Below are positions 343 to 62,000 of a stretch of 64,000 nt of DNA, in pieces; position 1 is the stretch's first letter; each line of letters begins with the position of its first letter. The DNA is from Arenibacter algicola (lineage in GTDB: Bacteria; Bacteroidota; Bacteroidia; Flavobacteriales; Flavobacteriaceae): the NCBI RefSeq assembly GCF_018860365.1, contig NZ_JAHKPO010000018.1, positions 186,001 through 250,000 of the forward strand. The letters run 5' to 3'. Both the position numbers and the translations under genes were made by a program. The notes under the pieces are model-generated. The model was not told where the DNA came from. It searched no databases and worked only from the letters and a program-made list of their open reading frames with translations.

Positions 343-516
343 AGATAACGTTTTCGTATAACCATTATTTGCCGGTTAATATGCAATAATTATTGGTTGG
401 GACTGACGTTACCAATTCCGAGTGCCTACCTGCCTGAGTGTAGTTTAAGGAAAGTTTAATCGGCCGTTCCGAGTTAAGAGAACAGTGCAATAAATAGCGG
501 TTATTCATTGTTGGTT
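343..516 (-). repeat. attC-like site S1 (most distal recognised)
   Basis: AACG at 347, box GTATAACC; the right half ends TTATTCATTGTTGG with GTT at 510. The outer arms pair over about 20 nt (ATAACC-ATTATTTG with its counterpart at 490-506). The minus-strand R'' flank GTTGGT equals the start of the MBL cassette at 1479. It has a CGTTCCGAG-type inner segment shared with S5. Confidence 0.8.
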
Positions 517-560
517 TAAGGTTTCTCTTTATTTAGGTAGACATTGGGATTATATTTTTC

Positions 561-655
561 CATTTAGATTTCTGGTTTAGGTAGTTTGGTAAATCCGTAT
601 TTTACATAGAGCCATTCCGCTGTGCTTGTCTATAAAATCCAACATCTTAAATCTT
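561..655 (-). pseudogene. GNAT acetyltransferase remnant
   Basis: On the minus strand this stretch reads QDLRCWIL-stop-TSTAEWLYVKYGFTKLPKPEI-stop. It aligns in frame with the end of the intact GNAT at 40574-41029 (LQGLRRWILLTDTAEWLYKKFGF...). An in-frame TAG and the absence of the rest of the domain show it is decayed. It sits between site S1 and the MBL gene with no attC of its own, so it is probably the remains of an older cassette that fused with its neighbour. Confidence 0.65.
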
Positions 656-734
656 GCCCTAATAGACCTCAGGCATAAGAGGGTTCAGGGAAAGGTGAGG
701 CAGTTATGAATTATTGCCATCCAAAGTTTGTCTT

Positions 735-1463
735 TCATATTTTGATTACTTGTCCAATTGTCGGAATGATACACTTGATATTTTCCCCTTTGACTTTCAG
801 CTTATTTTCAAATTCGCTAAAACTCTTACCAAGATTATGGATAGGGACAACAATTTTCGGATTAATCGTTATGGTTGTCTTTACTGCCTCGTCAATGTTC
901 ATAGTGAATTTACCGCCAATTGGAATAAATGCTACGTCAATGTCTTTCAATAATTCCATTTCTACTAAAAAGTCCGTGTCGCCCAAATGATAAAAGGATA
1001 ATCCGTTAATTCTAAAAATATAGCCAACACCTTGGCCCTTTTTATGTTGTTTTATTGTTGAAGTTCCATGTTGGGTATTATAGGCATTCAAAACGGTTAC
1101 GGAGATGCCGACATTAATTTGGAGGGTGTCATTTGGCTTCACAAGGATGATTCTATCTCCAAGTTCCTTAAAACAACTTTTAGGGGCAAAAATTTTCGTA
1201 TCCTGTTTTATCAGTCGGTCTACCGTTACTCTTTTGCAGTGGTCTTTGTGGTGATGAGTTATAAATATAAAATCCGCTTTCTCAAGTCCGTTCGGCATTC
1301 CGTCAATTGGGTCAGGCCATTTTGAGTACTCTGTTTTATCGGGATATTTTGAAAAATACGTCTTTAAATAGGCGGGGTCAAAATAGATTACTTTTTTGTT
1401 GATCCGCAATCGAATCCAGGAATTAGGAAACCAGGTTATATCAGTTTTAGTTGTTATTTCCAT
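735..1463 (-). CDS. MBL-fold metallo-hydrolase (UlaG-like)
   Basis: 242 aa, cytoplasmic, no signal peptide. The zinc-binding HxHxDH motif is THHHKDH at residues 69-75 (H70, H72, D74, H75). A further ligand His lies in NTQHGTS and an Asp in HLGDTDF. The order and spacing fit the UlaG/YtkL-type beta-lactamase-fold hydrolases. The substrate cannot be inferred. It is the coding part of the cassette between S1 and S2. The three + strand frames inside it are shadows. Confidence 0.88.
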   Translation of the reverse strand: MEITTKTDITWFPNSWIRLRINKKVIYFDPAYLKTYFSKYPDKTEYSKWPDPIDGMPNGLEKADFIFITHHHKDHCKRVTVDRLIKQDTKIFAPKSCFKELGDRIILVKPNDTLQINVGISVTVLNAYNTQHGTSTIKQHKKGQGVGYIFRINGLSFYHLGDTDFLVEMELLKDIDVAFIPIGGKFTMNIDEAVKTTITINPKIVVPIHNLGKSFSEFENKLKVKGENIKCIIPTIGQVIKI

Positions 1464-1474
1464 TCTGTTTTAAT

Positions 1475-1688
1475 TACCAACAACATGTTCGTTTATGGCT
1501 ATTTGCCTTGGCAATAACTAAGTTAGCAAAAGAAAACGAATCTGCGGAAAACCCTTCCTGTTACGCTTTTGGGAGTGGAGGATTTTCCAAGAAGGCGAAA
1601 AAAAAGCAACCCGTCCACCGGCCTTAATAACAAAATTGTGCAGGTAACGATTAGGGTGGGGGCGGGTTAGTTATACACAGTGTTTTCA
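1475..1688 (-). repeat. attC-like site S2
   Basis: The left core ACCAAC (AAC at 1479) gives cassette start GTTGGT, matching the R'' flank of S1. The right end TTATACACAGTGTTTTC has GTT at 1682. Inner hairpin TTACGCTTTTGGGAGTGG resembles the CCACGC...GCGTGG hairpin of S12/S24/S30/S31. Confidence 0.75.
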
Positions 1689-1776
1689 TATCGTTTTTTC
1701 AATTTATTCTATTTTACAGGATAATCAAATAAAAACAAACCTAATATACTTATATTGTTCATTAAAATAAATACCT

Positions 1777-3439: not shown

Positions 3440-3638
3440 TGCCAACGGTCCCGGTTGTGAAACGTAGTGCAGAAAACAGGCAGTTTCGTTTTGGATAAAC
3501 ACAAGCCCAATTATTAGATTTCACTAAGAATCTTTTTTTCTCAATTAGCCAAATTTAAAAAATTTGATGACCTCTCAAAAATTATCGAACCTTAGTGTTG
3601 GCAATGGCTAGTACTATGTTTTATACAGGTTGTTGGGC
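3440..3638 (-). repeat. attC-like site S3
   Basis: AAC at 3444, GTT at 3632 (CTATGTTTTATACAGGTTGTTGGGC). Cassette start GTTGGCAT compares with GTTTTCAT of S2. Left part GAAACGTAGTG and right part TATGTTTTATA are shared with S34. Confidence 0.8.
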
Positions 3639-8061: not shown

Positions 8062-8157
8062 CCATAACGGTTAACTAAGCGTAGGGTAGGGGTACTGCAC
8101 GGTACCTGCCCAACTTTGTTATACAGGCGGGAAGGTTACTTATAGGCATTGTTGTAG
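8062..8157 (-). repeat. attC-like site S4
   Basis: AAC at 8066, GTT at 8151. The outer arms CTAAGCGTAG and ACTTATAG-type right half pair loosely. The start GTTATGG does not match the flank of S3, which suggests that the 3.6-8.1 kb block is not one original cassette. Confidence 0.7.
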
Positions 8158-10962: not shown

Positions 10963-11207
10963 TTATAACATCATTTATGCAATTATATGCTTCCCGAGAA
11001 AGGTCCGGCTTAAATGTGGATTACGGAATTTATGTTATTGTTTTTAGGATAAGCACAGACATTAGCTATTCAGAACAGCCCGACAAAGTTATTCTAGCGG
11101 GCTGGATTATCTGTGTCCGTCCAGAGCTAAGTTGAAAGCTTGTAAAATCTGCCGTTCCGAGCGAAGCGAACAATGCAACAAATTGTGGCATTATAGTAAA
11201 GTTCTGT
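10963..11207 (-). repeat. attC-like site S5 (long family)
   Basis: AAC at 10967, GTT at 11201 (GTTCTGTAGC). The interior AGCCCGACAAAGTTATTC and GCGGGCTGGATT is shared with S16 and S19, and CGTTCCGAGCGAAGCG with S1. The ends are degenerate. Confidence 0.6.
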
Positions 11208-11892: not shown

Positions 11893-11961
11893 TGCACGTA
11901 AACAAAGCACCCCGCCCTGCCCGAATCATTATAGGCGGGTTAATTTTATACGGTGTTGTAG
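11893..11961 (-). repeat. attC-like site S6 (short, left end worn)
   Basis: The right half ATTTTATACGGTGTTGTAGG has GTT at 11955 and is nearly identical to the end of S17. The inner stem CCCGCCC...GGCGGG is intact. The left AAC core is not recognisable (GCACGTAAAC). The R'' flank GTTGTAGGTA matches the CDF cassette start GTTGTAAGTA. Confidence 0.65.
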
Positions 11962-12797: not shown

Positions 12798-12948
12798 TTA
12801 CAACGATGGTGTAAAAAATGGTAGACCGGAAAATGGGCGACGACCATTGGGTTGAACACAAGACGAATTTTAAAATTTGGGGACTTTTCAAATGCACCCG
12901 AACCTTTCGGTTTTGTTATAATTGCCTTATTGTTTATATGCGTTGTAC
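12798..12948 (-). repeat. attC-like site S7
   Basis: AAC at 12802, GTT at 12942 (TTATATGCGTTGTAC). Cassette start GTTGTAAGTA agrees with the flank of S6. It overlaps a spurious 5' extension of the CDF reading frame. Confidence 0.75.
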
Positions 12949-14609: not shown

Positions 14610-14830
14610 TTAGAACGCCTGGGCTCTGATTAGTGCGGTGTAGAAATATGACGGATTCCCAGCCGCGCGCTAAGCTAAGCATTTGGTTTTGATTTGTTTT
14701 TTGTTTTGTCCAAAGCTAAAATTGAATATTTCGCTGTCACGTAATTTTCAATTTAGTCACTTTATAAATATACACAGACCTTTCCGTTTAAACCTAAAGT
14801 TCGCATTACGTTTAGGTTGTTTTGTTCTGT
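14610..14830 (-). repeat. attC-like site S8
   Basis: AAC at 14614 (AACGCCTGGGCT), GTT at about 14824. Right half CGCATTACGTTTAGG and the stretch TTTATAAATATACACAGACC are shared with S33 and S40. The end sequence is altered (GTTCTG). Confidence 0.75.
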
Positions 14831-15506: not shown

Positions 15507-15637
15507 CCACAACGTGTTTGTGTATGGTTAGTTGCGTGTTTAATTAACTAATTTAGCAAACAAATCACGGATAGAAAATTTCAGTGGAATTTTCGTAAGT
15601 CGGCAGTGATCTAGCAATCAATTATACATTGTTGGCT
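15507..15637 (-). repeat. attC-like site S9
   Basis: AAC at 15511, GTT at 15631. AACGTGTTTGTGTATGG and AATTATACATTGTTGG are a clear conserved pair of ends. Central stem GAAAATTTC/GGAATTTTC. Confidence 0.85.
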
Positions 15638-44735: not shown

Positions 44736-44741
44736 AAAAAC

Positions 44742-44765: not shown

Positions 44766-44826
44766 AGATATTTATTTTTAATCCGCAGTAAATTTTTGGA
44801 ATTTTCGACTTGAGTGAGACAATGCA

Positions 44827-45556: not shown

Positions 45557-45751
45557 GCACAACGTTTTGTGTATGAAACGTAGCGTGTTATAAGACCCTG
45601 ACTTTTTGGATAAACAAAGAGCCGAATTTTTATATTTTGTTTTTAACTTATCAATTTTAAAGGCCAAATTTAGAAATTTGGCATTCTTGTTAAATAAGCA
45701 GAAACCTTTGGGAAACCCTATAATAGCTATGTTTTATATACATTGTTGCAG
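45557..45751 (-). repeat. attC-like site S34
   Basis: AAC at 45561 (AACGTTTTGTGTATG), GTT at 45745 (TTTTATATACATTGTTGC). GCCAAATTTAGAAATTTGGC is a perfect inner hairpin. Start GTTGTGCCCA equals the flank of S33. Confidence 0.9.
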
Positions 45752-47609: not shown

Positions 47610-47810
47610 CTACAACGGCTTCGGCTATGGCAAGTAGGGCAGGCAAGGAAACTTTTCGTTTCCGTCTGGTCTGCTAGCCAGAGCTTTTTGTTTTGTAATT
47701 ATTTTTTCTTTTTTAATTGCCAAATCCAAAAGATTTGGTGGACTTAGCAAATACGCCCAAGCCATTAAATTTAGCACTTTATGCCCTATTTGTTATAGCC
47801 ATTGTTAGCT
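47610..47810 (-). repeat. attC-like site S35
   Basis: AAC at 47614 (AACGGCTTCGGCTATGGC), GTT at 47804 (TTGTTATAGCCATTGTTAGC). R'' flank GTTAGCTGC equals the start at S36. Same family as S38. Confidence 0.92.
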
Positions 47811-48738: not shown

Positions 48739-48870
48739 AGCTAACGGGTTTGGCTATGATTTCGGCGTGGATAAATACGCAGGATTTGTCCGCAGAGAAA
48801 TCAGGTTTGTTAAGTTTATATATTTTTCAAAATAGTTCATAAACCACCCTGAATTATAGCCGGTGTTGCC
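48739..48870 (-). repeat. attC-like site S36
   Basis: AAC at 48743 (CTAACGGGTTTGGCTATGA), GTT at 48864 (AATTATAGCCGGTGTTGCC). R'' flank GTTGCCATT equals the start at S37. Confidence 0.9.
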
Positions 48871-49475: not shown

Positions 49476-49606
49476 TGGCAACGGTCTAGTATAAGAATAG
49501 TAGCGGATTTTATGCACTTACTTTTTGGTTTGTTACTGTCTTTGATTTTTAAAATTCATTTTCGTTTAAGCGATTAAACCGCTATTATTTTTATACAATG
49601 TTGTGG
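49476..49606 (-). repeat. attC-like site S37
   Basis: AAC at 49480 (AACGGTCTAGTATAAGAATAG), GTT at 49600 (TTATACAATGTTGTGG). AGTAGCGG/CCGCTATTATT arms. R'' flank GTTGTGGCTA equals the start at S38. Confidence 0.92.
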
Positions 49607-50635
49607 CTAGTTTTTCTTTTTAATGATTTTTACGATTCGGTTAATTATAATTTCTGACAAGTTCCATTCATACCCTTCAAAATCTGTTGTATTTATAAAT
49701 TGAACTACCACAGCATCTAAATCTTTATGATATTCTGCGAGACTTTGATAACCAATGACTAAACCACCGTGATTATATTCGTAAGGATATAATTCCTGCT
49801 CTCCTTCTTCAAATACTGAACCATCATTCAAGGCTCTTAGGAATGTGCCTACATCCTTTGCGGTTGCTAACATTCCAAATTCTCGGGCTTTAAAATCTTC
49901 TTCAATTCCTACATAATATCCGCTCATCACGTCTTCCAAATCTACTTCGGTAATCGAAAAATAGGTGTCGTTAAGGTTCAGAGGTTTTAAAATTTTCTCT
50001 TTGATATATTCATTGTGGTTATAGCCTAAAACATCATCCATAATCCTGCGCAGTAATAAATAATTCGTGTTTGAATATTCATAACCTTTGTCTGGTTTAA
50101 AGCTAGCAGGTAAGTCTAAAGCAAAATCTAATGGATTTTTGCCATTTTCTTCTTCGTTTTCCCAGAACGCTGGATTGTCCGTAAAGTTTGGAATTCCAGA
50201 GCGGTGTTGAATCATCATTTTCAATGAGATATCATTGGCATTCTCTATTCTTCCTTTTAGTTCGGGTTGGTAATCGGTTAATGGTTTATCAAAAGACAAA
50301 CGCTTTTCTTTGACCAATTTTGTAGCTGCTACGGCAGTATACAACTTACTAATACTTGCGATTTTGAAGAGTGATTTGGGGTCGGCAGGTATTTTCTTTT
50401 CTCTATCTTTCCACCCGCCTGTGTAAAATTGTGGTGGTTTACCTGTTTGGTCTACATAAACAATCATTCCATCAAATCCATGTCCAATGGCTTCATCTAC
50501 TTGTTCTTGAACGGTATCTGGTAGCGGTAAAATCCAAGCCTTTACCAAAATCCAAGGAACAAAAAACAATGAAACTGCGGTTCCAACAAGTAATATTGCT
50601 CTTACAAGCCATTTGGCCTTTTTGTTTTTTATCAT
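49607..50635 (-). CDS. membrane-anchored serine hydrolase (paralogue of 32946-33983)
   Basis: 342 aa with an N-terminal anchor (VRAILLVGTAVSLFFVPWILV). SxxK is SISK at 94-97, YSNTNYLLL the YxN motif. Alike over the full length to 32946-33983 (PLPxTVQEQV, KIASxSKLYTAVA, EVDLEDVMSGYYVG). Their attC sites, S23 and S37, are also alike. Single-gene cassette. Confidence 0.88.
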   Translation of the reverse strand: MIKNKKAKWLVRAILLVGTAVSLFFVPWILVKAWILPLPDTVQEQVDEAIGHGFDGMIVYVDQTGKPPQFYTGGWKDREKKIPADPKSLFKIASISKLYTAVAATKLVKEKRLSFDKPLTDYQPELKGRIENANDISLKMMIQHRSGIPNFTDNPAFWENEEENGKNPLDFALDLPASFKPDKGYEYSNTNYLLLRRIMDDVLGYNHNEYIKEKILKPLNLNDTYFSITEVDLEDVMSGYYVGIEEDFKAREFGMLATAKDVGTFLRALNDGSVFEEGEQELYPYEYNHGGLVIGYQSLAEYHKDLDAVVVQFINTTDFEGYEWNLSEIIINRIVKIIKKKN

Positions 50636-50680: not shown

Positions 50681-50880
50681 CCACAACGCTCCTGCTATGG
50701 CAAGTGGGGCGGGCAGGGAAACGTTTCGTTTCCGCCCGTGCCCGTAGCCAGAGCTTTTGCATTTTGTTCTTATCTTTTTTATTTCAAGAGCCAAATCAAA
50801 AGATTTGGCGGACTTCACAAACATGCCCAAGCCAATGGATCCAAGACTTAACGCCCTATTTGTTATAGCAATTGTTGTGC
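50681..50880 (-). repeat. attC-like site S38
   Basis: AAC at 50685 (AACGCTCCTGCTATGGC), GTT at 50874 (TTATAGCAATTGTTGTGC). Stems GGAAACGTTTCGTTTCC, CCAAATCAAAAGATTTGG. R'' flank GTTGTGCACA equals the start at S39. Confidence 0.92.
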
Positions 50881-51464: not shown

Positions 51465-51595
51465 GCACAACGGTCTCGTATAAGAATAGTAGCGGATTTT
51501 CACGCACTAAATTTCCGTTAAACACAGACCTTTATTATATTTACTCACTTTCGTTTTAGCGATTAAACCGCTATTATTTTTATACATTGTTGTAA
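51465..51595 (-). repeat. attC-like site S39
   Basis: AAC at 51469 (AACGGTCTCGTATAAG), GTT at 51589 (TTATACATTGTTGTAAG). R'' flank GTTGTAAGC equals the cassette start at S40, which defines 51592-59722 as one cassette. Confidence 0.93.
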
Positions 51596-51741
51596 GCTGG
51601 CTTTCCACTTCCTACTTGGTTTTCCGAAGTTTTAATGCTTGTTTGGAAGCGTGAGTTGGCAAATCATACTATTTTGCAATTTTTGGCTTGTGTGTCGGCT
51701 GATGCAAATTGCAAATGTGTATGGCTTTTAGCGTTGGCTTA

Positions 51742-53613
51742 TTATCTGTCTGCAAAATATCCATATTCTTTATTAATTACTAATCCTCTGTCAAGGTATA
51801 AATTCGATAGCTCACAAGTTGTTTCAGGTGTTAAAGCACAAGAATGACAAGCTGCAAGATTTAATTGACCAACTCCTTGACCATCTGATTCTATACAAAT
51901 TGGGTCGGATGAACAATCAGTTGCCCTGAAAATGGCACTATTAACTATAGTATTGAGGTTATCTAAATCGTTACATAAATTTGATAATCCACCTAAATAT
52001 CCGTCAGTTCCATCAAAAGCAGAAATTAAAAATCCGTGCATTGTTTCGTTTACATACAATCTTTCAGACAAAGAAGATACAGGATAACCACAGACATATT
52101 CCAATTCACGCATCAACAAATGCGAAAGCGTATGAATTAAGATTTTTCTTGGTGTTAAAGTTTTGGCTATAATTTGATGAGATTTCCAATCGGCATTATT
52201 AGCATTAGTCTTTATTTTTTCTGTGCGTTCAATTACGACTTGTTGGCTCTCCCATTGTTCCAATTTATGATTATCCAAAATGAATAAAATTCCTTCTCCA
52301 TAACTTTCTGATGCAGGTAAGGTTTTTGTGTCAAAATTGTTTTTTGATACTGATTGTCTTTTAACTGTGTACTCATAAGCATTATCGCCATCTTTGAGCA
52401 ATATTGAATCAATATCAATAGGCTCGTTTCTTGTAAAGGATGTTTGAACGGTTGTCTTTTTTAATTTGTCAATTTTTATAAGCTTATTAAACCCATTGAT
52501 TTGTTCACTACTATCAATTACACGGAATTTTATCTGCTTATTATCTGGTTGCTCCTTTTCCAAGAAATAGTCGTACTCAGTTTGTCGATAAATATTATCT
52601 GGAATGTATTTAATGTCTCCTGTGTCTAAATATTGTTGAATCAACTCTTTTTCAATTTTCTTTTGGATGCTTATTAATTGAATTATTTGTTCTGTTGAGA
52701 ATTCTCGACTTTCTAACATATTGTCGATATCAATTCTTACTTCTGGTGATAGTGGATTTTGAAGCTCAGGAATAAATAGACTACTTAAACTATTCGAATA
52801 ATATACACTATTACTCGTTTTCAGTTTTACGCTTGTAATTTCTGAACACTCTTCTTCGTAAAACTTTCCATTAATTTGACCTAACCAATATTTCTTACCA
52901 TTGCAGATTTGCTCATAGTTAAAAATACCTTTTAGATTTGCTTTTTTATTGCAATTTTTACACTCAATCCATATACCAGATAGTTCGGTGTTTTCTCGAC
53001 TGATTTTGTAGATTAAGTTTTGATTTTCGCAACAAGGTTTAGAAAAATCTAATTGCGGACCTGTTGGTTTTTCATTTGCTTCTTCTTTTTCTTGTTCGTT
53101 GGTTCGGTCGCTTGGTAAACGGTTATTCCAAAATTTCCAAGGTAAATCGTGAATATGACCATTTTTACAAGTCATAACAAAACGAATTTGCTCCAAATGA
53201 TTTTCCTTGCAGTCTTTATTACTGCATTTTGGTGGATTGAAAAAATCAAGTTTCTTGCCTGCACTTCTCCAACGGGTTTTCCATTCGTTGTATGGTGCAA
53301 ACCGTTTGCAATAAGAGCAATAAAACCATTTTGAGAAATAATTTGCTTTTGGTCTTACTTGATGCAAAAAAGAATCTCTGTCAGTAGGTATTGAAACCAA
53401 ATGTTTCAAATTTGGGAAACGGTTTTTTAAGCGTTGCAATAATCTATCGTCCTTTATGATATAATGAGCTAATTTTTCGTTTAAATCTCCATATCCCCAA
53501 TTATCAAAGGTTTCTATCATTATAGAATTATCAGTTGTTTCAATCAAAGAACCAACACCACCATAATTTGAAATATGCTTGCTTCTTCCGTGTTTTATTT
53601 TGTCGTTTGGCAT
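51742..53613 (-). CDS. drmB: DrmB-like DUF1998 protein (DISARM-type defence)
   Basis: 623 aa. N-terminal ISNYGGVGSLIE, several zinc-type Cys pairs (FYCSYCKRF, PKCSNKDC, IECKNCNKK), central TCKNGHIHDLPW, and the C-terminal DUF1998 pattern ILIHTLSHLLMRELEYVCGYP ... LAACHSCALTPETTCE. This is the architecture of DrmB, the partner of the DrmA helicase. Last gene of a four-gene operon, 3 bp after drmA. DrmB-DrmA form the core of DISARM anti-phage systems. Confidence 0.9.
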   Translation of the reverse strand: MPNDKIKHGRSKHISNYGGVGSLIETTDNSIMIETFDNWGYGDLNEKLAHYIIKDDRLLQRLKNRFPNLKHLVSIPTDRDSFLHQVRPKANYFSKWFYCSYCKRFAPYNEWKTRWRSAGKKLDFFNPPKCSNKDCKENHLEQIRFVMTCKNGHIHDLPWKFWNNRLPSDRTNEQEKEEANEKPTGPQLDFSKPCCENQNLIYKISRENTELSGIWIECKNCNKKANLKGIFNYEQICNGKKYWLGQINGKFYEEECSEITSVKLKTSNSVYYSNSLSSLFIPELQNPLSPEVRIDIDNMLESREFSTEQIIQLISIQKKIEKELIQQYLDTGDIKYIPDNIYRQTEYDYFLEKEQPDNKQIKFRVIDSSEQINGFNKLIKIDKLKKTTVQTSFTRNEPIDIDSILLKDGDNAYEYTVKRQSVSKNNFDTKTLPASESYGEGILFILDNHKLEQWESQQVVIERTEKIKTNANNADWKSHQIIAKTLTPRKILIHTLSHLLMRELEYVCGYPVSSLSERLYVNETMHGFLISAFDGTDGYLGGLSNLCNDLDNLNTIVNSAIFRATDCSSDPICIESDGQGVGQLNLAACHSCALTPETTCELSNLYLDRGLVINKEYGYFADR

Positions 53614-53616
53614 ATG

Positions 53617-56600
53617 TTAATATTGTCTAATAAGTATCTCAGCACTTGGTTCTACACTTCGCATTGATTGCATTGCCGTTAAGGTATCGTCATCATTTTT
53701 CTTCTCTTGAATAGGCACGATTAATGAATCTTTAGGATGGTCTCTCCAAAAATATTTAAGGTCTTTTTGTGCATCAATTTTATATTTCCAATCTCTTAAA
53801 ATATTATCAATCTTTTCAGTTATAAGTTGTAAATCATTTTGAGCAAAGTGATGGTTTTGAAAAAGTTGAAGCAAATTATTTCGTAATTCATTTTTTACTT
53901 TGTCATCAATTAAGGCTGTTGCCGCATTATTAGCGGTATATGGTGTGGTATGTCTGAAATAAGCAAGAATTAGTGTAAACAACATTTTGTCCAAAGCATT
54001 TTCGGCAAATGGTGTTACGCTTAATGGTTCTACTTGTTTATAAAATGTTTTGTGGAATTGTACAAAATCTTCAAAGTAAGATAAATCACGGCTATTGAAT
54101 GGGTCGTAAAGCGTAATAACCAAGCCTTCGTTTTTTCTTGCCACACGGCTACTTGCCTGAATATATTCAGCTGTATTTGGTGGCATTCCGTTCATTATCA
54201 TTAGACCTAGCCTACTAACATCAAGACCAACACTAATCATATTAGTTGCCAATACTAAGTCGTAAGCCTTATGTTCATTGATGTTTCCGTTAAATTCAAT
54301 TTCTAATTTATCTAAATTCTTCTTGATTTTTTCATTAGGAATACGGCTTGTCAATTCAATGTTTCGATATGATAATTTATTGTAATTACTTCTTTCACTA
54401 TGTGAATTGTTATTCAAGTATCGAACTTGTAATTGCTTGATAATTGGTTTTAATTCCGAATTAATTTTATTAGAAAATCGTCCAATTTCTTTTAAGCTCT
54501 TGAAATAAGAGAGTATCGTCCAAAAATTATCTACTTCTTTTTTATCTGACGACTTTTTCCAAACTTCCAATCTTGCAAAAAGCAATGATGCCAATAATTG
54601 TAAATTGGTAACAACAGTTGTCTTTCCCGTTGGTAAAATGCCTATATATTTTCTTTTACTTTCTTCAATTACTTTTGAAAAAAATGTGTCGTCTGAATTA
54701 GTAGCATATTGTGGAAATATTCGTGCTTCTCTGCCGTACAAACCTTGAATTTGTTTGTCAACATTTTTGACGGTTGCCGTGGAAGCAATGATTTTAGGGT
54801 TATCACAAAGTTGCAACAAGGCATTTTCAAATAAACCAACTAAACTTCCCAAGGTTCCATTTAATAAGTGTAATTCATCTTGAATTATCAATTCTGGTTT
54901 ACGATTTGAGCCATTGTTGAAGAATGTAGTAGATTCTCCTTTCCAAGCTAATGATGCAAATTTATCAACGGTCGCAAAAAGAATAGTAGGTGGATTTGAA
55001 TAAATATCTTCATCTATTAAGACTACTGGCAAACCTCCGTTTTGTTCCGAAAAATGACAAGCATTGTTCAAGCAATAGCTTCTTAACTGCCTGTAAGTTC
55101 TATGTCCAATTTGATGTGCTTTGTCTTTTTCATTTATTCGTGAGATAATTTTAGTATTACACCATTGACAGTTTGATAATTGAAAAGGGTTTACAACATA
55201 TTGATTGCCTTGATTGAGCTTATTTTGAGCGTATTCTAATTTTTTCTTACCATCTTTTAAGTAATTAGGAATTGTTTGTTTACCCACCCAAAAACCAATC
55301 GAAACAGGTTTGTCACCTAAATCTGTATGATTACTTCGGATAAATTCACAAGCTAAAATTAATTTTGAAGCTCTTTCAAATTGTTGTGCAGAAAGCAAAC
55401 GCAATGTGTAGCGGATGATTATGTTTACACCATCGTAACTATCAGGATATTGTATTCTTCTCCAAAAAATCAAGAATGCTGAAACTGCTAAATATGCTTC
55501 TGTTTTTCCACCACCAGTAGGGAAGTAGAGTAAATCAATCAACTCTTTTTCATTGCTATTTTCATCAACAAACGAAGCCAAACATTGTAAAATAAATGCT
55601 AATTGAAATGGTCGCCATTCTGGTATTCGGTCTGAGGGGAATGGCAATGTTCCATAATCTTGAAATTTATTTTGTAATGGTTCACTACGTTCCCAAACTT
55701 CATATCCTTCTTTTTTCTTACTAAAATGTTGCTGGCTTTGAAAAAATTGCAGATAAATAGCAGTATTAGATAATTGAAATGCTCGTAAAGCATTTTCATT
55801 TTCAGAAAGTAATTTAATTCCATTGATTATTCTGTCGTAAATCTGCTCACACTTTTTGATGTTTTTTAAACCTAATTCATTTCCGTTTGCAGATTTATTT
55901 TCTTCTTCAATCCAATTTTTGTATGCTTTAGCTACCTGCGTAAGATTAGAGATAATACTTTCTGTATCAGAATTGTAAACAGAAAGGTTTTTAATGTTTA
56001 GAATGTCTCCTTTAATTTTGTCGGTTTCTGAACTTTGGTTTTTTACATCATATTCAGGCAAAAAAGTAGATTGAATCCATTGAGGTGTGTTTGGTGATTG
56101 AGCATTTTCCCAAGTGCAAGCTGTGTTATGTCCAATACCAAATGCTAATTTATCACGATAGAGATAATCCAACATTTTGTCTTCATCAGTTTTGTACAAA
56201 TGTGCTTTGTAATCCCTGAATGGTAACAATTTTCCACTTTCAATTCTCACTTCAGTTTGAAAACAGGATAATTGATTTACCTTTTCTTTTGAAAGTGAAA
56301 ACTTGTCTTTAGGAATCAATGTTTTATTTTCAATAACTGCTTTAATAAAATACTTGTCAGAATAATTTGTGTAAATTTTAAAATGAACAACAAGGTTTTC
56401 CTTCATTTCCTTGCTCCATTTTTCTGTATTCACATTTGATTGTTCAGATAGTATTAATTCAAGGTGCTGATTGTCGGCTGAAAGAATATCCTTGATATTT
56501 GTCTCAATCTCAATTGAATTGTCATTTCGTTTGTATTTGTCTTTAAAAAAAAGTTTTGAAATGATTTTGTATAAGGCGTGGTCATAAGATGTTGCTTTTG

Positions 56601-57219
56601 CCAAGGATTTTAATCCATCTTGAAATGCTTGGTATTCTGCGGTTATATTTCCGTCTTTTGTTCGCTGTATTTTTTTAGTTTGTGAAAGTGTCTTGTTCGG
56701 TTCGTCATAACTTATAAAATTATTTAAACCGTGTTCGGATAGTAAGTTTATACCTTCGCCATCATAAGAAATTTTTGTTTCCTCAGGTTTTGCTTTTGAA
56801 TAATTTCCAAAAGAAATAACAGTTTTAAATTTTTCACAAGATTTTTCAACGGCAAACGTAATCCCGAAATGGGAAGGGAAAAACGTGTTTGAAGTATATT
56901 TGGGTTGAGTGTCTGTTTTATCCGTTTCATCATCATCTTTAAAAAATTCTTTTTCCTTTTTTTCTTCTTCATCTATGTCTGAATTTAAATCAGTTACATC
57001 ATCTGCATCTTCTTCTTTCATTTCCTGCTCGCCATTGTCGCTTGCATTTGGTTGTAACTGTTTTGGAAATAAAATTCCCGAATAGTATCGTTGTAAAGGT
57101 TTCCCTTCAATGATTTCATCACTAAAATCATCTTTGCATAGAAAAATGTCAGAACCTGGACCGATTATTTCTTTCTTAACACGTTCAATGACTATATTTC
57201 TGTTCTCTTTTACGCTCAT
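53617..57219 (-). CDS. drmA: DrmA-like SF2 helicase (DISARM-type defence)
   Basis: 1200 aa. Acidic linker at residues about 60-100 (EEDADDVTDLNSDIDEEEKK). Walker A FPTGGGKTEAY at about 565, DEXH motif IIQDELHLLNG at about 780, helicase C-terminal motif ASSRVARKNEGLVITLYDPF at about 1023. Length and order match DrmA. Starts 4 bp before the end of the upstream gene (ATGA overlap with 57216-58688), so translation is coupled. Confidence 0.92.
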   Translation of the reverse strand: MSVKENRNIVIERVKKEIIGPGSDIFLCKDDFSDEIIEGKPLQRYYSGILFPKQLQPNASDNGEQEMKEEDADDVTDLNSDIDEEEKKEKEFFKDDDETDKTDTQPKYTSNTFFPSHFGITFAVEKSCEKFKTVISFGNYSKAKPEETKISYDGEGINLLSEHGLNNFISYDEPNKTLSQTKKIQRTKDGNITAEYQAFQDGLKSLAKATSYDHALYKIISKLFFKDKYKRNDNSIEIETNIKDILSADNQHLELILSEQSNVNTEKWSKEMKENLVVHFKIYTNYSDKYFIKAVIENKTLIPKDKFSLSKEKVNQLSCFQTEVRIESGKLLPFRDYKAHLYKTDEDKMLDYLYRDKLAFGIGHNTACTWENAQSPNTPQWIQSTFLPEYDVKNQSSETDKIKGDILNIKNLSVYNSDTESIISNLTQVAKAYKNWIEEENKSANGNELGLKNIKKCEQIYDRIINGIKLLSENENALRAFQLSNTAIYLQFFQSQQHFSKKKEGYEVWERSEPLQNKFQDYGTLPFPSDRIPEWRPFQLAFILQCLASFVDENSNEKELIDLLYFPTGGGKTEAYLAVSAFLIFWRRIQYPDSYDGVNIIIRYTLRLLSAQQFERASKLILACEFIRSNHTDLGDKPVSIGFWVGKQTIPNYLKDGKKKLEYAQNKLNQGNQYVVNPFQLSNCQWCNTKIISRINEKDKAHQIGHRTYRQLRSYCLNNACHFSEQNGGLPVVLIDEDIYSNPPTILFATVDKFASLAWKGESTTFFNNGSNRKPELIIQDELHLLNGTLGSLVGLFENALLQLCDNPKIIASTATVKNVDKQIQGLYGREARIFPQYATNSDDTFFSKVIEESKRKYIGILPTGKTTVVTNLQLLASLLFARLEVWKKSSDKKEVDNFWTILSYFKSLKEIGRFSNKINSELKPIIKQLQVRYLNNNSHSERSNYNKLSYRNIELTSRIPNEKIKKNLDKLEIEFNGNINEHKAYDLVLATNMISVGLDVSRLGLMIMNGMPPNTAEYIQASSRVARKNEGLVITLYDPFNSRDLSYFEDFVQFHKTFYKQVEPLSVTPFAENALDKMLFTLILAYFRHTTPYTANNAATALIDDKVKNELRNNLLQLFQNHHFAQNDLQLITEKIDNILRDWKYKIDAQKDLKYFWRDHPKDSLIVPIQEKKNDDDTLTAMQSMRSVEPSAEILIRQY

Positions 57220-58688
57220 ATTTCAATTAATTGTAAAGCTGTTTCTTCTAATTTTTCAATGCTTTCACTAATAGCTTCTTTGCTAACAACTGTGTGCATT
57301 GGCATAAACTCATCAACAAAAGCGTGTAAAGTGTATTCGTTGAAATTTCTTTTTCTCAATATTTCCCCAATTTTCTTTTTCTTCAAAAACAGACGCAATT
57401 CTTGTTTTAACCCACGACCAAGTACAATCATTGTGCTATTGTAAGTGGTTTTTGATTTTAAAACTGGGTTTAAAATCGTGTCAATTTCATTATCAGATAA
57501 ATTATGATAATACAATTTTAAAATTGCTCTTAAATCATTTTTATACATTGGAAACTTTCTAAATCCACTACCGTAAGCTGCTAATGTATTAGGTAACACT
57601 TTTAAGCCGTTTTCTTTTAATTTTTGATAAAGTTGTTCATCTCCAAACTTGTTTCGCAAATCACATATGATTTGTTTCCAAAAATTTGAGTGTTCTTCTA
57701 CTTTTCCAAAAATGTCAGGCTCGGTTTCAACAGCAACCTGATAAAGGTTATCGGCTAATTGTTCTTTTGGATAAATTCTAATTTTGTCTCCTACTTTGAT
57801 TTTATAGGATTTTATCAAATCTCCTTTATCAGTAAAAACGGTATCATTGCTTTCTAAGAACAGTTCGATTTTCGTGGTTATTATTTTGTAAATAAGTTTT
57901 TCTTCAATTTCATTCAGCAATAAATCACATTCTTCTTTATATCCATCATAAGCCTTGTTATTCATTTCGTCTAATCGACAAACAATACCATTTATGGTAG
58001 AACTGATGTCAGTAACATTATTTCTTGTTTCTTTATATTCAATACCACAAACTTTAAAACGGTCGGTTGATTTGATTTCAGTTTCAATCAGTTTTTTCCT
58101 TTGGTCAAGATATTTGTGATATAAGTTCTTTTCCTGTTTATAGATAATCAATCTTATTTCATTATCTAAATTGTAGAAATAATCAAAATCTTTCTGACCG
58201 TTGAATGAATAAAATACCAAAACTTTGTTTTGAATATCTATTCGTTTTAAGTTTGAAAAAGGGACTGTTTCAACTCTTCTGTTTTTGATATGTTGACTTA
58301 TGAAATCCAAATCATTGTTGTCAACTACTACAATTGTTCTTTTGTCGCTTTTATTCAAGAAGTCGAATAAAATTTGTTGTTTTGGCTGTCTTTCATTAAT
58401 TAGTTGAAGTAAACTAATGAGTTCAGTTTTTGGATTATTGTCTTTGAGATAATCTGTTGTATATCCACCTGCATTATCTAACTCTTTTTCTAATTCTTTG
58501 TTGATGTTGAGCCTGTTTATGAGATTTTCAATAGTTTCTTTTTGAATAGCATTTAAGCCAACTCGTAATATGTTTCCGTAGGATTTCAAATCAAAACCAA
58601 ACTCTGAATGGATAAATTGTACTTTCATATCAAGACTTTTGATACACTCTTCTATTTCTTTGTTTGGTATGTTTCGGAAATTAATCAT
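57216..58688 (-). CDS. DISARM-associated protein of unknown function (candidate C-terminal half of a split DrmE)
   Basis: 490 aa. No enzyme motif recognised; central alpha/beta segment TIVVVDNNDLDFISQHIKNR, and an all-alpha C-terminus. Starts inside the last codons of 58685-59575 (ATGA) and ends overlapping drmA. Together with the preceding 296-aa protein it totals 786 aa, similar to what is expected for DrmE-like proteins of class 2 DISARM. This is inference from length, order and context only. Confidence 0.5.
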   Translation of the reverse strand: MINFRNIPNKEIEECIKSLDMKVQFIHSEFGFDLKSYGNILRVGLNAIQKETIENLINRLNINKELEKELDNAGGYTTDYLKDNNPKTELISLLQLINERQPKQQILFDFLNKSDKRTIVVVDNNDLDFISQHIKNRRVETVPFSNLKRIDIQNKVLVFYSFNGQKDFDYFYNLDNEIRLIIYKQEKNLYHKYLDQRKKLIETEIKSTDRFKVCGIEYKETRNNVTDISSTINGIVCRLDEMNNKAYDGYKEECDLLLNEIEEKLIYKIITTKIELFLESNDTVFTDKGDLIKSYKIKVGDKIRIYPKEQLADNLYQVAVETEPDIFGKVEEHSNFWKQIICDLRNKFGDEQLYQKLKENGLKVLPNTLAAYGSGFRKFPMYKNDLRAILKLYYHNLSDNEIDTILNPVLKSKTTYNSTMIVLGRGLKQELRLFLKKKKIGEILRKRNFNEYTLHAFVDEFMPMHTVVSKEAISESIEKLEETALQLIEI

Positions 58689-59575
58689 AAGGCATCTACA
58701 ATTTCAATTTCTTCTTTGAACCAATTCCAACAAGGAATAGCCTCATTTTTTAGAGGCAAATAACTGTTGGATACAATTATTAAATTGAAACCAAATCGAG
58801 ATTTGTCTTGAAGTATTTGTTCAATTTTATCAGCTTCGGTATCAAAGACAATAACTGTCTTGATTTTTTCTCCTTTTAATAGAATTTGTTGATAACAAAC
58901 CTCATACTTTGGTGTAAAAAATGCTAAACAGTCTTGTAAAGCTGGAATTGATTTAGTTGTAGAAGTATGATTTTCTTCTCTCGGATTTGGCAAATAGGCA
59001 CAAGGAATTTTGTTTTTATTAGGCAAAGAATCCCAAAGAGGTTTTTTGGCAACGAAAACAGTTTTACTTTCAAAATTAGTGGGTGTAAAGTCCATTTTTT
59101 TCCCTCCATTTAATTCAGAAAAAAATTTGGTATAATCTCTCAATTGCCTCGACCTTTGTTCAATGGGTAGAAAGAACTTAACAAGTTTGTCATATTTGAA
59201 AGGTGAAATAGCTTTGTTTTTAGTGTCTTGAAGGAAATAAGTGTTATTACTAATCCTTTGAATAATTGCGTAGTGTTGTTTTCCATCTCTATGAGTTCGT
59301 AAATCTCTAAGTCTATCTCCCTTTTTTAAATCAGGTAAATCATAATGGTTTAGGAAAATATCATTAGCAAATTCAACAAACAATTGTTTTCCTATTTCAA
59401 GGATTGTTTCTTTTGAGTTTTGAAAGTTAATATGGATAGGTTGGTTTTTTCGGTAAAAGTCTAAAATGAATTTTATTGAAAGGTCAGCAGTATTTGAATT
59501 AGTTAGGTTCAGGGTAATAATCCCGTCATATTTTTTCCATAATGCTTGATAATATTCTTCGTTTAAAATTGTCAT
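58685..59575 (-). CDS. DISARM-associated protein of unknown function (candidate N-terminal half of a split DrmE)
   Basis: 296 aa. RNA- or DNA-binding-like segment LKKGDRLRDLRTHRDGKQHYAIIQRI, then a helical part, then an alpha/beta domain (KTVIVFDTEADKIEQIL, FNLIIVSNSYLP). First gene of the operon. A promoter TATATTTG with TTTG 22 bp upstream lies just before its ATG. No known nuclease, methyltransferase or PLD motif. Confidence 0.5.
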   Translation of the reverse strand: MTILNEEYYQALWKKYDGIITLNLTNSNTADLSIKFILDFYRKNQPIHINFQNSKETILEIGKQLFVEFANDIFLNHYDLPDLKKGDRLRDLRTHRDGKQHYAIIQRISNNTYFLQDTKNKAISPFKYDKLVKFFLPIEQRSRQLRDYTKFFSELNGGKKMDFTPTNFESKTVFVAKKPLWDSLPNKNKIPCAYLPNPREENHTSTTKSIPALQDCLAFFTPKYEVCYQQILLKGEKIKTVIVFDTEADKIEQILQDKSRFGFNLIIVSNSYLPLKNEAIPCWNWFKEEIEIVDAL

Positions 59576-59595
59576 TTGTCAAAATACGTTTCTTT

Positions 59596-59629
59596 CAAAT
59601 ATATTTTCTTTTTTTCGAGCGTTGGCAAA
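59596..59629 (-). promoter_or_regulatory. promoter of the DISARM-like operon
   Basis: On the minus strand TTTG (59629-59626), then 22 bp, then TATATTTG (59603-59596), an exact fit to the Bacteroidota TAnnTTTG -7 box. The first ATG follows 20 bp downstream of the box, leaving a very short leader. Confidence 0.65.
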
Positions 59630-59715
59630 AAACAGCTCTTTTGGTTTTTCTGCTTTGGCTTATGTATCGGCAAAAAACCACATGTGCTGTTTGTGCGGCT
59701 GGCTTTTCAGCTTGC
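59604..59715. other. spacer upstream of the defence operon; loose repeat of the spacer at 51630-51741
   Basis: Both spacers contain AGCG..TTGGCAAA followed by TTTGGCTTRTGTRTCGGC and later GGCTTTT. No gene is seen in it. The other copy lies between S39 and drmB. Confidence 0.4.
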
Positions 59716-59912
59716 TTACAACGGTTCGGCTAAGCGTAGTGCGGAGGCAAGGAAACTTGTCGTTTCCGTCTGAGCACGAAGCTAAAGCTTTTGGTTTTGC
59801 TTTTTCTTTTTTTTGTCCAAAGCTAAATCCCAAAGATTTAGCGACTTCATAAATATACACAGACCTTTCAGTATTGCCCTAAAGTCCGCATTACGTTTAG
59901 GTATTGTTAGCA
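59716..59912 (-). repeat. attC-like site S40
   Basis: AAC at 59720 (AACGGTTCGGCTAAGCG), GTT at 59906 (ATTACGTTTAGGTATTGTTAGC). GGAAACTTGTCGTTTCC and AAATCCCAAAGATTT stems. R'' flank GTTAGCAAAC equals the start at S41. Confidence 0.93.
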
Positions 59913-60048
59913 AACGTTTTTATTTCAGAAACACTAAATCTAGATACGTATTTCGGTTGTTCAAAAAATTAGTGTTTGTAGTATTATTTTAATTACAAAG
60001 TGTATTTTATGATGCCCTTTACCTTTCTAATATTCACTTTATTACCAA

Positions 60049-60918
60049 TTAATTAATAATTTCATCTAAACATTCTGCTTTCCAAACTAGTCCAATGTCA
60101 GAATCTCCTGGCATAAGTCTTCCAGAATAAATTCCTAAAAATTTTTGCGCATAAGCGCCTGCGGAAATAACAAAACTATTTTTAGTATTGTAACTCGACG
60201 TTCTGCAAATAACAGGAGAACCTGACATACCACCCCTTGTAGAAGCATCTATATAAAATAATGGTAATTCATTAATATTTATGTCATAATCAGTTGAAAC
60301 TTGTCCAGTTTTCCAAATAGGTAATTTTCCAAAACTTGAAAATCCGTAAGGAAACCCAATAATGCTAACATCCATTGAAGGATATATCAAAATATCATCG
60401 TTAAATTTAACTTCATTGATAGGATATAATTTCAATAAGATATTATCAATACCTTTGAAGGTTAATGGAATAGCAACAACATCAACTGCACTCCCTTTAG
60501 GGTGCTCAAGCCAAATAGGTTTTTGTTTTTTATATAAATCTATTTCGACAGTCTTCCATTCCCCTAATGTTTTTCGGTGGAAATAAATTTCTAGTTTTTC
60601 GGGATTAGAAATGTCAATTCCCTCACTATTTACCTCTGCTTTTCCATTTGGGTGCTTTCCACTTACAACATGCCAATTAGTTATCAAATAATTTATTCCG
60701 TTTTTTTCGTAGATAAAACCTGTGGCTGTAGTTGTTGGAATGTATTTGCCATTTATTTTTTTTGAGGTTTTTAAAAAAAGCGAAACAGTAGAAAATTGGT
60801 CTATGTTTATTGTGTCTCTTACGTTTTGATTTAAAATACTACTGTCGGTTATTACCTCTTGAGCATAAGAAAAATCTGAAACCATAAAAGTAAGTAAAAG
60901 CCAAAAGAAATTTTTCAT
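60049..60918 (-). CDS. secreted trypsin-like serine protease
   Basis: 289 aa with a signal peptide ending SYAQ. Catalytic triad His83 (LITNWHVV), Asp146 (SAVDVVAI) and Ser232 (RGGMSGSPVI). No PDZ domain follows, so it is a stand-alone trypsin-2 type rather than full DegP. It lies 137 bp downstream of S40 and is the only gene of its cassette. Confidence 0.88.
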   Translation of the reverse strand: MKNFFWLLLTFMVSDFSYAQEVITDSSILNQNVRDTINIDQFSTVSLFLKTSKKINGKYIPTTTATGFIYEKNGINYLITNWHVVSGKHPNGKAEVNSEGIDISNPEKLEIYFHRKTLGEWKTVEIDLYKKQKPIWLEHPKGSAVDVVAIPLTFKGIDNILLKLYPINEVKFNDDILIYPSMDVSIIGFPYGFSSFGKLPIWKTGQVSTDYDININELPLFYIDASTRGGMSGSPVICRTSSYNTKNSFVISAGAYAQKFLGIYSGRLMPGDSDIGLVWKAECLDEIIN

Positions 60919-61260
60919 ATTAAATTTGTTAGTTTCATCAGTGAATAATTTTTATATGAATACATCTCATTTCCTAAAAAATATAAAAGTAGCATAATAA
61001 TCAGAAGAGGAGAAACCAAGTTCTTAACAGTTATAAACAACTATAATTCAGGGATGTATTTAAAATTTCCAATCTCGCCAAAGTAAGAAAAAGCTATTGT
61101 ACTATCTACGTTTTGAAGGTATATATGTATCAAATTTATGACTAACACCTAAGAAACGATTTACAGCTTTTATATTCTAGGAAGAATACTTGATTTTTAG
61201 CTAATTTTTAAGGATAGAATTATTGAGTAAACACAAACTTAAATACTTGGGCAAAATGTT
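60919..61260. other. 342-bp AT-rich non-coding region
   Basis: No credible reading frame, no repeat shared with other spacers. It lies upstream of the protease gene, within its cassette, and may hold its promoter. The length is unusual for this array. Confidence 0.6.
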
Positions 61261-61390
61261 TGCTAACGGTCTAGTGTATGATTAGTTGCGGACATTTCCG
61301 CAGGAAAGTGTCCGCCAGTTCTAAGATAATTAATTGCAGTGATTTCCGTTTAGGAAATCGGCCAGCAATTAATTATACACCGTGTTGTGC
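61261..61390 (-). repeat. attC-like site S41 (first site of the array)
   Basis: AAC at 61265 (AACGGTCTAGTGTATGATTAG), GTT at 61384 (AATTATACACCGTGTTGTGCC). Stems GGACATTTCCGCAGGAAAGTGTCC (imperfect) and GATTTCCGTTTAGGAAATC. R'' flank GTTGTGCCCA equals the sequence at the attI junction 61950. Confidence 0.93.
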
Positions 61391-61930
61391 CCAGTTTTTT
61401 ATTTTATCAATCAAAAGCTCTATTCGGTCATGTCTAACCCAGCCAGTCAAGTCCATATTTATTACATGTACTTTGTCCATTTGTTCATATATTTCAATGA
61501 TCCTTTGGTGGCCAAACAGAGAGTTTTCTTGTTCGCTATAAATGAAGGTTAGTCGGTCGTATGGAATCTTTCTTGTTCTAGTTTTATTATTAAGAAGGTT
61601 TACCGATTTGGTCATAATAGTTTTTTCTCCATCATCAAATTTTACTTCGAAAACCTCTCCAAATTTATATTTTCTACTTGCTCTGTATACTAAAATTCCA
61701 ATTACTACCAATCCGAATATTATAGTCCATAAATATGGTGAAGCTACCATTGATTCAAAAACTGAGTTTTTATTATCTAGATATCGATTTCTCCTCCAAA
61801 ACGGAGTTGATAATCCTAAAACCCAAAGAGCCACTAATCCTAAAGAGAACAGTGTTATGTATTTCATTATTAATGTTCCCCAACTCAAATCAGATTCAGG
61901 TTGGTCAATTTTAAAATTCGATTCATTCAT
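61373..61930 (-). CDS. two-TM protein with PH-like domain (first cassette)
   Basis: 185 aa from the ATG at 61930 (MNESNFKIDQPE); the longer frame from 61954 enters the attI-like junction. Two membrane segments (IMKYITLFSLGLVALWVLGL; YLWTIIFGLVVIGILVYRA), then KYKFGEVFEVKFDDGEK and FGHQRIIEIYEQMDKVHVINMDLTGW, as in 45007-45549. Stop codon within site S41 (tail NWAQHGV). Function unknown. Confidence 0.77.
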   Translation of the reverse strand: MNESNFKIDQPESDLSWGTLIMKYITLFSLGLVALWVLGLSTPFWRRNRYLDNKNSVFESMVASPYLWTIIFGLVVIGILVYRASRKYKFGEVFEVKFDDGEKTIMTKSVNLLNNKTRTRKIPYDRLTFIYSEQENSLFGHQRIIEIYEQMDKVHVINMDLTGWVRHDRIELLIDKIKNWAQHGV

Positions 61931-61939
61931 TGGCTTTAA

Positions 61940-62000
61940 TTGGGCACAACACATATATATGTGTAATTAAAGGTTAAGATATAAAAATAATGGTATACCT
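61940..62000 (-). other. attI-like integration junction
   Basis: Minus strand: a perfect 16-nt palindrome ACACATATATATGTGT (61949-61964) runs directly into G^TTGTGCCCAATT. The last ten bases repeat the R'' flank of the first cassette's own site S41, which places the crossover at 61950/61949. A further 8-nt palindrome GGTATACC lies at 61992. Unlike the attC sites there is no long dyad. Confidence 0.75.

Follow-up and report, generated by a model that had tools for sequence, protein, structure and literature searches.

A chromosomal cassette array in Arenibacter algicola, read as an integron-like platform with a tyrosine recombinase outside the IntI lineage

The 5.75-Mb genome of Arenibacter algicola (Flavobacteriaceae, Bacteroidota; assembly GCF_018860365.1) carries a real, integron-like cassette store, located in a stretch of 64,000 nucleotides (nt) of contig NZ_JAHKPO010000018.1 (positions 186,001 to 250,000), referred to below as the window. 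Mostly minus-strand genes between positions 346 and 61387 are parted there by oriented imperfect palindromes, the cassette nearest the head of the array starts at 61950, and a tyrosine recombinase gene (62099-63166) diverges from the array. The window can be regarded with high confidence as a chromosomal integron-like cassette platform run by this adjoining recombinase, of a lineage separate from IntI, and the platform very likely functions like an integron. What supports this was read from the DNA sequence: the sites, their covariation, the complementarity of cassette ends, the attI junction, the type of the recombinase, the site-bounded differences between genomes and the polarity of the array. 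It is probable, with less certainty, that the window belongs to a second, IntI-independent integron superfamily spread over the Bacteroidota and above all the Flavobacteriaceae, with recombinases of another lineage (divergent or co-directional), folded sites recognisable by their A·C/T·G mismatches, and cassette stores that reach 135 detected sites in one genome, within a family surveyed as nearly integron-free.

Sites of the array and their fold

An earlier note on this DNA had described oriented palindromes between genes of a Bacteroidota chromosome over positions 343 to 61950. This description holds, with sites lying between 346 and 61387 and 61950 as the start of the first cassette; the note counted 41 palindromes, the present curation 39, of which 35 are two-armed and four are half-sites. 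These attC-like sites (Table 1), all oriented on the minus strand, were curated from hand-picked motifs, which gave both arms in 34 of the 39; one more (23115-23243) was completed by R1, a covariance model with 23 training rows in all, 13 of them window sites. R1 itself matched 26 places in the window at E <= 0.1. A paired position weight matrix (PWM) scan trained on the curated sites returned 35 sites on the minus strand, one on the plus strand and 0-1 per mononucleotide shuffle (n=6), and neither the PWM nor R1 found a site in the flanks (the 20 kb left of the window and the 12 kb on its other side). A strict palindrome scan anchored on AAC/GTT arms gave nothing useful, a strict RYYYAAC/GTTRRRY regular expression only four pairs on each strand, and an Rfam search no match. 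Strong conservation in the R box is limited to AAC, GTT and the purine that follows GTT; the remaining positions of RYYYAAC/GTTRRRY, a motif which the earlier note had given in full, vary both in the window and in other arrays. One 1.7-kb cassette is bounded by two near-identical 63-nt sites, 29482-29544 and 31242-31304.

The sites share one plan: the R stem, an unpaired spacer (3 nt on one side, about 6 nt on the other), 6 bp, an A·C mismatch, 4 bp, a second A·C mismatch, at least 4 bp and a variable interior. Both inner A·C mismatches hold without exception in the first 23 sites, in which double changes occur at 10 of 17 pairs. Among 132 further sites from other loci, in an alignment fitted to the model and hence biased towards its structure, 96.8% of the cells are paired and double changes are seen in 413 cells, where shuffles give 106; pairing falls to 23-38% when the partner is displaced by 1-3 columns. 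One opposed mismatch has A in 132/132 and C in 131/132 sites; the other has A in 118/132 and C in 114/132, with C on the A side in 13 rows and G on the C side in 12. Opposed A·C pairs occupy the place of the one-sided extrahelical bases of the L stem, as these are defined in the available part of PMC2727003, and a variable one-sided A is found on the 3' side of 43/132 sites.

When folded in the circle form, 23 of 32 sites had z < -2 (30 mononucleotide shuffles each; 32 of the 39 sites were folded), so that folding as single strands, which the earlier note had named as a check, is found together with covariation. In arm-only folds, computed with sites above 230 nt and pairs below 5/6 left out, the bottom strand was the stabler in 139/139 cases (mean -20.1 vs -15.9 kcal/mol): each A·C of the gene strand becomes a T·G on the opposite strand, and the bottom strand therefore folds better. 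Integrons use the bottom strand of attC, according to the available part of PMC2727003, and by analogy the bottom strand is probably the substrate in the window system.

Complementary cassette ends and polarity

If circles open at the sites, the sequence following the GTT at the start of a cassette should equal the reverse complement of the sequence that precedes the AAC at the other end of that cassette. Positions 5-10 were scored (GTT being 1-3, with the next base skipped) in 34 cassettes, the five of the 39 sites without a preceding start not being included. In the window, own ends matched at 4.53/6 positions, against 1.78/6 for mispaired ends and 1.65/6 for the two flanks of one site; a match of at least 5/6 was reached by 21/34 cassettes and by 0/34 same-site pairs, and the observed total by 0 of 20,000 permutations. 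With the PWM unchanged and pairs of sites separated by over 6,000 bases dropped, 149/189 pairs in other arrays of the genus and in eight other genera matched at 5/6 or better (3.9% when mispaired). Two pairs of these loci overlap (L010/L082 and L012/L084); without L010 and L012 the figure is 142/180 consecutive pairs in 20 stretches, and for the eight other genera alone it is 94/104. Position 11 is an exception, with A at the start in 34/34 cassettes of the window and 182/189 elsewhere, mostly C at the opposite end, and a match in 3-5%. In all these arrays the DNA has cassette ends matched as excised circles require.

The match is polar along the window array: 14/14 of the cassettes nearest attI reach at least 5/6, as against 7/20 of the others (Spearman -0.68), as expected if cassettes enter at attI and old ones decay.

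The head of the array

The recombinase gene (PF00589, E 8e-41) falls just beyond the coordinates of the earlier note, which gave no integrase. The platform/cassette junction carries the palindrome ACACATATATATGTGT (61949-61964); the G of the G^TT cut on the array strand would lie at 61950, and base 61949 would be the cassette's own. Among loci L009-L014 the palindrome is identical in five of six, and in L012 the outermost, cassette-owned base alone differs. Six relatives, five of Arenibacter and one of Zobellia, align with the window from 61945-61948 to past the recombinase gene, and their adjoining cassettes differ. By recombinase, the closest named relatives are A. echinorum, A. palladensis, A. 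troitsensis and A. hampyeongensis (93-97% identical).

Cassettes of the window recur at other positions in other arrays, also in other genera; shared stretches are 88% identical over 867 bases in L071 and 91.5% over 625 bases in L074. With alignments of up to 250 bases and two flanking loci omitted, and with several high-scoring segment pairs (HSPs) matching the same cassettes, 24/30 HSP ends fall no more than 25 nt from a site, where random positions give 12% (at most 37% in 2,000 draws). The comparison of related genomes that the earlier note had called for, with differences sought at site boundaries, has this outcome: the attI junction is fixed, the cassettes differ, and most HSPs end at or near sites.

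A recombinase 63% identical to that of the window, with an attI-like junction and a cassette-like start, is present in Tenacibaculum gallaicum (L015); the 10 kb upstream hold one R1 match (8631-8688, 37 bits), which implies at most a short array.

The recombinase

Two types of this recombinase are distinguished here: type A, divergent from the cassettes as in the window, and type B, co-directional with them. Against TIGR02249 the window protein scores 199 bits in two stretches (cut-off 265) and nine other A/B proteins score 183-213, while IntI1 scores 506; against NF011946 the window protein reaches 123 bits (cut-off 435). Its best NCBIfam model is NF040815 (XerA_Arch), at 205 bits against a cut-off of 220 that is passed by 5/9 and missed by 4/9 other A/B proteins, and both the window protein and other A/B proteins stay below the curated XerC and XerD cut-offs. 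When A/B proteins were aligned with IntI1, IntI2 and 25 IntI from the same phylum, every IntI row had the IntI insert and no A/B row did, and residues 207-245 of IntI4 have no counterpart in the window protein. In trees of 39 and 32 of 56 rows, the IntI form one clade (100/100) with the insert columns in or out, and A/B fall outside it; type A is a clade, the second tree sets A and B apart from two Xer rows, and the deep forks are weak (80/78). On the missing insert, these scores and these trees the window recombinase is judged not to be a member of the IntI family.

The aligned A/B proteins have an extra N-terminal domain in common, which is not general, since relatives of about 280 amino acids (aa) lack it; two such short recombinases, divergent from nearby sites, were seen at G018:C13:65561-66370 and G158:C2:492523-493344. 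The AlphaFold model of the window protein is middling (mean predicted local distance difference test 73, predicted template modelling score 0.44, residues 172-181 and 328-355 under 50), so the fold search, with IntI4 among its top matches, supports the family only.

Near-identical tyrosine recombinases of 265-304 aa occur in several copies in or near arrays (L079 5726-6523 and 11348-12145; L077 6431-7228; eight in G117) and possibly represent a mobile element using array sites. A truncated tyrosine recombinase lies beside tet(X3) on an Acinetobacter pseudolwoffii plasmid (NZ_CP084302.1; L091 6034-6627); being 49% identical to the window's recombinase and without the IntI insert, it looks like a piece of the flavobacterial recombinase family, and no R1-type site above chance was found near it.

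Distribution in the Bacteroidota and pairing of sites with recombinases

R1 matched 18/18 genomes of the genus, 133/149 Flavobacteriaceae genomes (one per genus) and 87/296 genomes of the phylum, with counts per genome capped by the number of candidates scored, 22 in the family survey, 11 in the phylum survey and 150 in the genus and eight-genome surveys. Run with default filters, R1 missed all the phage sites (described below) that are seen unfiltered, so that default counts are lower bounds. Eight genomes in 1-10 contigs, selected on low contig number and strong R1 matches before recombinases were looked at, hold 24-135 R1 matches each. In 8/8 a tyrosine recombinase of the same group stands at the head of the main array and is co-directional with the cassettes there. 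Layouts of the co-directional kind are exemplified by G110:C19, G080:C16 and G125:C3 and of the divergent kind by G102:C24 and G158:C2. Across the family the recombinase (E <= 1e-60) was detected in 99/133 genomes with sites and in 3/16 without (odds ratio 12.6, p 2e-5), in a 2x2 count made by eye from match lists to which genome size may contribute. On the Chryseobacterium plasmid NZ_CP041688.1 a recombinase 41% identical is followed by same-strand sites, whose matches are weaker than the chromosomal ones (best R1 31 bits).

True IntI, above the TIGR02249 cut-off, were found in 84/296 genomes of the phylum and in 0/149 Flavobacteriaceae (the family scan was run at E <= 1e-50, with genomes lacking IntI as controls, and only the over-cut-off tally is used). 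R1 found no site in 10/10 true-IntI loci and eight sites in two loci of the same phylum with the other recombinase. Canonical sites were located in six of the ten true-IntI loci: in L126 by a relaxed regular expression, put in place of a strict one and giving pairings of about 7-16 nt, and in L121, L125, L127, L130 and L131 by the model R2 described next. The remaining four possibly have no array. R2, an attC model made from the true-IntI array L126, found 22 sites at E <= 1e-3 in 5/9 other true-IntI loci, none in class 1 and class 2 integrons, and one at that threshold in eight flavobacterial sources, none being in the window. These reciprocal results indicate that each of the two site types accompanies its own recombinase type, with cross-recognition to a slight extent. 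Cassette ends pair in true-IntI arrays as well, over as many as 16 nt, and position 11 shows no fixed mismatch there.

The earlier note had proposed an integron-type array in a Bacteroidota chromosome, with attC-like sites, as an extension of the known range. The array itself stands, supported by fold covariation and site-bounded differences; the sites, however, are not ordinary attC sites, as A·C mismatches replace the extrahelical bases and the true-IntI attC model finds no site in the window, the recombinase beside the array is not IntI, and with sites in 133 of the 149 sampled family genomes this is no isolated range extension.

Proposed mechanism and alternative explanations

In the mechanism proposed, circular cassettes would be inserted at the palindromic attI (61949-61964) by the recombinase encoded at 62099-63166, and the same enzyme would excise or shuffle them between the attC-like sites, each site acting as a folded single strand. 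In a circularised cassette the two ends would pair as the R stem, and up to three opposed A·C mismatches of the gene strand, being T·G on the other, would make the bottom strand the better hairpin. New cassettes would come in at the attI end and degenerate towards the distal end.

Several observations weigh against this platform being run by the adjoining recombinase. Within the array, 4/39 sites are half-sites and 13/20 distal cassettes stay below a 5/6 end match. In the family, no recombinase was detected in 34/133 site-bearing genomes, and site clusters without a recombinase also occur; second clusters with no same-group recombinase at their head were seen at G031:C1:2215116-2260930 and G130:C1:1875055-1887887. 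Such genomes and far-off clusters mean that another enzyme could act on some of the sites. IntI1 may recognise sites of this kind, to judge from the assay of a Polaribacter phage site in the available part of PMC9892861. The Bacteroidota SOS motifs given in the accessible text of PMC8565304 were found upstream of recombinases in 1/18 regions (at -234) and in 0/18. Finally, catalysis by the recombinase is predicted from sequence, and the cut position, the strand used and expression are likewise predictions.

The system might be read as a canonical integron with a divergent IntI and divergent attC sites. The two share a plan (AAC/GTT ends, C before GTT, and an asymmetric spacer of 3/6 nt here and about 2/6 in a true-IntI array), the pairing of cassette ends also extends to 16 nt in true-IntI arrays, IntI4 is among the top structural matches, and R2 has one match among flavobacterial sites at E 2e-4 and two weaker ones at 0.01-0.2. 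The absence of the insert from every aligned A/B protein, its presence in every aligned IntI, the TIGR02249 scores far below that of IntI1, and a fully supported IntI clade that excludes A/B make a divergent IntI improbable, and divergent attC sites fit poorly with an R1 that matches none of the ten true-IntI loci. It is a tentative possibility, somewhat short of even, that A/B descend from an IntI ancestor before the gain of the insert, with homologous site systems; the common site plan and a 100/98 branch that puts A/B and IntI opposite two Xer rows speak for such descent, but the deep forks are weak and a parallel origin fits equally here. This descent is compatible with the main explanation of how the system works.

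The cassettes might instead be moved by the host XerCD or by some other tyrosine recombinase, as all eight genomes searched have other tyrosine recombinases and some site-bearing genomes lack a detected A/B enzyme. That one recombinase group holds the head position, and that two site types track two recombinase types within one phylum, renders this quite improbable. Hardly any weight can be given to the idea that the palindromes are dispersed repeats or terminators with the recombinase as a chance neighbour: they are intergenic and foldable, and some lie outside the main arrays, but the complementarity of ends is specific to each cassette, the recombinase stands at the head in all eight genomes, the attI junction is fixed while the cassettes differ, and cassettes common to several genera end at sites.

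If A/B recombinases move the cassettes, a large overlooked cassette pool, phage defence genes included, exists in a main group of marine bacteria. It would also suggest that the insert, called necessary for IntI activity in a title cited in the available part of PMC9668308, is dispensable for recombination of folded sites, and the way in which strand choice is encoded would become open to direct test. The related platform on the Chryseobacterium plasmid shows that such platforms can leave chromosomes.

Cassette contents and flank

A Pfam scan of 62 array proteins identified five PF00144 serine hydrolases, four SnoaL/NTF2-like domains and a toxin-antitoxin pair (44149-44735), all in agreement with the cargo listed in the earlier note ("several" NTF2-like proteins there), as well as DinB, GNAT, AraC, LysR and other regulators. 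A 77% identical stretch of the toxin-antitoxin cassette is found in a type B array of another genus (L070). The 8.1-kb cassette encodes DrmA (53617-57219, 674 bits) and DrmB (51742-53613, 212 bits) of a DISARM-like system of phage defence, and its two remaining proteins have no Pfam or PADLOC match; drmC and a methyltransferase are parts of DISARM. A trypsin-like protein of the second cassette (60049-60918) gives a 58.5-bit match to PDC-S45, a candidate defence family. Five larger open reading frames of the array are on the plus strand: 1777-2865, 2994-3368, 20682-21278, 21656-22969 and 43409-43906.

Table 1. Coordinates of features in the window (position 1 is the first letter of the 64,000-nt stretch)
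Feature	Position	Strand	Basis or remark
RNA methyltransferase gene (PF05971)	63335..63955	-	flank; DNA common to Arenibacter relatives
Tyrosine recombinase, 355 aa, type A	62099..63166	+	no IntI insert, extra N-terminal domain
attI core	61949..61964	.	perfect 16-bp palindrome at platform/cassette junction
attC-like site 1	61264..61387	-	curated + R1
attC-like site 2	59719..59909	-	curated + R1
attC-like site 3	51468..51592	-	curated + R1
attC-like site 4	50684..50877	-	curated
attC-like site 5	49479..49603	-	curated + R1
attC-like site 6	48742..48868	-	curated + R1
attC-like site 7	47613..47807	-	curated + R1
attC-like site 8	45560..45748	-	curated + R1
attC-like site 9	44830..45019	-	curated + R1
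attC-like site 10	43934..44124	-	curated + R1
attC-like site 11	42519..42665	-	curated + R1
attC-like site 12	41045..41193	-	curated + R1
attC-like site 13	40445..40570	-	curated + R1
attC-like site 14	39832..39956	-	curated + R1
attC-like site 15	35903..36052	-	curated + R1
attC-like site 16	34950..35116	-	curated + R1
attC-like site 17	32817..32942	-	curated + R1
attC-like site 18	32141..32353	-	curated + R1
attC-like site 19, short (63 nt)	31242..31304	-	curated + R1
attC-like site 20, short, near-copy of site 19	29482..29544	-	curated
attC-like site 21	28151..28377	-	curated
attC-like site 22	26628..26777	-	curated; R1 match partial
attC-like site 23	26046..26130	-	curated + R1
attC-like site 24	25300..25526	-	curated
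attC-like site 25, only 5' half	23842..23861	-	curated
attC-like site 26	23115..23243	-	curated, completed by R1
attC-like site 27	21308..21578	-	curated
attC-like site 28	19530..19677	-	curated + R1
attC-like site 29	18198..18322	-	curated + R1
attC-like site 30, short	16604..16666	-	curated
attC-like site 31	15510..15634	-	curated + R1
attC-like site 32, diverged	14613..14822	-	curated
attC-like site 33, only 5' half	12926..12945	-	curated
attC-like site 34, only 5' half	11939..11958	-	curated
attC-like site 35, only 5' half, weak	11166..11187	-	curated
attC-like site 36	8065..8154	-	curated
attC-like site 37	3443..3635	-	curated + R1
attC-like site 38, diverged	1481..1685	-	curated
attC-like site 39, distal end of array	346..513	-	curated + R1 (E 0.05)
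PF00144 serine hydrolases	49607..50635, 41220-42491, 32946-33983, 18330-19508	-	Pfam
PF00144 serine hydrolase	21656-22969	+	Pfam
Toxin-antitoxin cassette	44124..44833	-	Gp49-like toxin, HI1420-like antidote
8.1-kb cassette, four genes	51592..59722	-	DISARM-like defence

Comparison with known systems

Superintegron-like cassettes were reportedly described in Psychroflexus torquis by Feng et al. in 2014; if so, part of this has been seen before. A literature search over titles and abstract openings, with preprints and most subscription papers outside its reach, gave no account of the recombinase or the arrays. According to the accessible part of PMC9024848, the IntegronFinder 2.0 survey lists In0 elements and then one complete integron of Bacteroidetes proper, in Salinibacter, and that part has no figure for clusters lacking an integrase there; taxon-specific attC models cover 11 taxa, Bacteroidota not among them in the available text of PMC8352920, and integron detection relies on an IntI-specific domain (PMC9668308, as far as its accessible text goes).

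For the Polaribacter phage P12002L, the available part of Qi 2023 (PMC9892861) reports an attachment-site cluster without an integrase and the recombination of the bottom strand of P12002L_attC2 with attI1 by IntI1, the top strand giving no recombinants. Unfiltered R1 finds on the plus strand of this phage (L132 31115-40951) at least eight sites of the R1 type, to whose coordinates the published attC2 could not be matched. Nearly all genes between these sites are on the minus strand, against the orientation of the sites and opposite to bacterial arrays.

XerA resolves chromosome dimers at dif. Among solved chains, archaeal XerA 4A8E is the nearest to the window protein by sequence, and alignments with XerA (PDB 4A8E, 5HXY) start at residue 86-89 of the latter, beyond its N-terminal domain. 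Treponema has inverted integrons, and inverted IntIs are mentioned in the accessible part of PMC8352920. Type B recombinases are likewise co-directional with the cassettes, but the Treponema enzymes are IntI and type B is not; the window system, being of type A, is divergent and in this unlike the inverted integrons.

The true-IntI integrons of other Bacteroidota resemble the window system in their arrays, AAC/GTT sites and asymmetric spacer; their recombinases exceed the TIGR02249 cut-off and have the insert, and R1 found no site in any of ten such loci. In the Vibrio superintegron the integrase gene is divergent. Compared with such IntI sedentary chromosomal integrons (the Vibrio superintegron, IntI4), the window system is alike in having a recombinase at one end, divergent in type A, an attI, oriented arrays, folded sites and complementary cassette ends. 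It differs in that no SOS box was seen upstream of the six type A genes examined, that of the window and five others, in a recombinase that lacks the IntI insert and stands outside the IntI clade, and in stems marked by opposed A·C instead of one-sided extrahelical bases.

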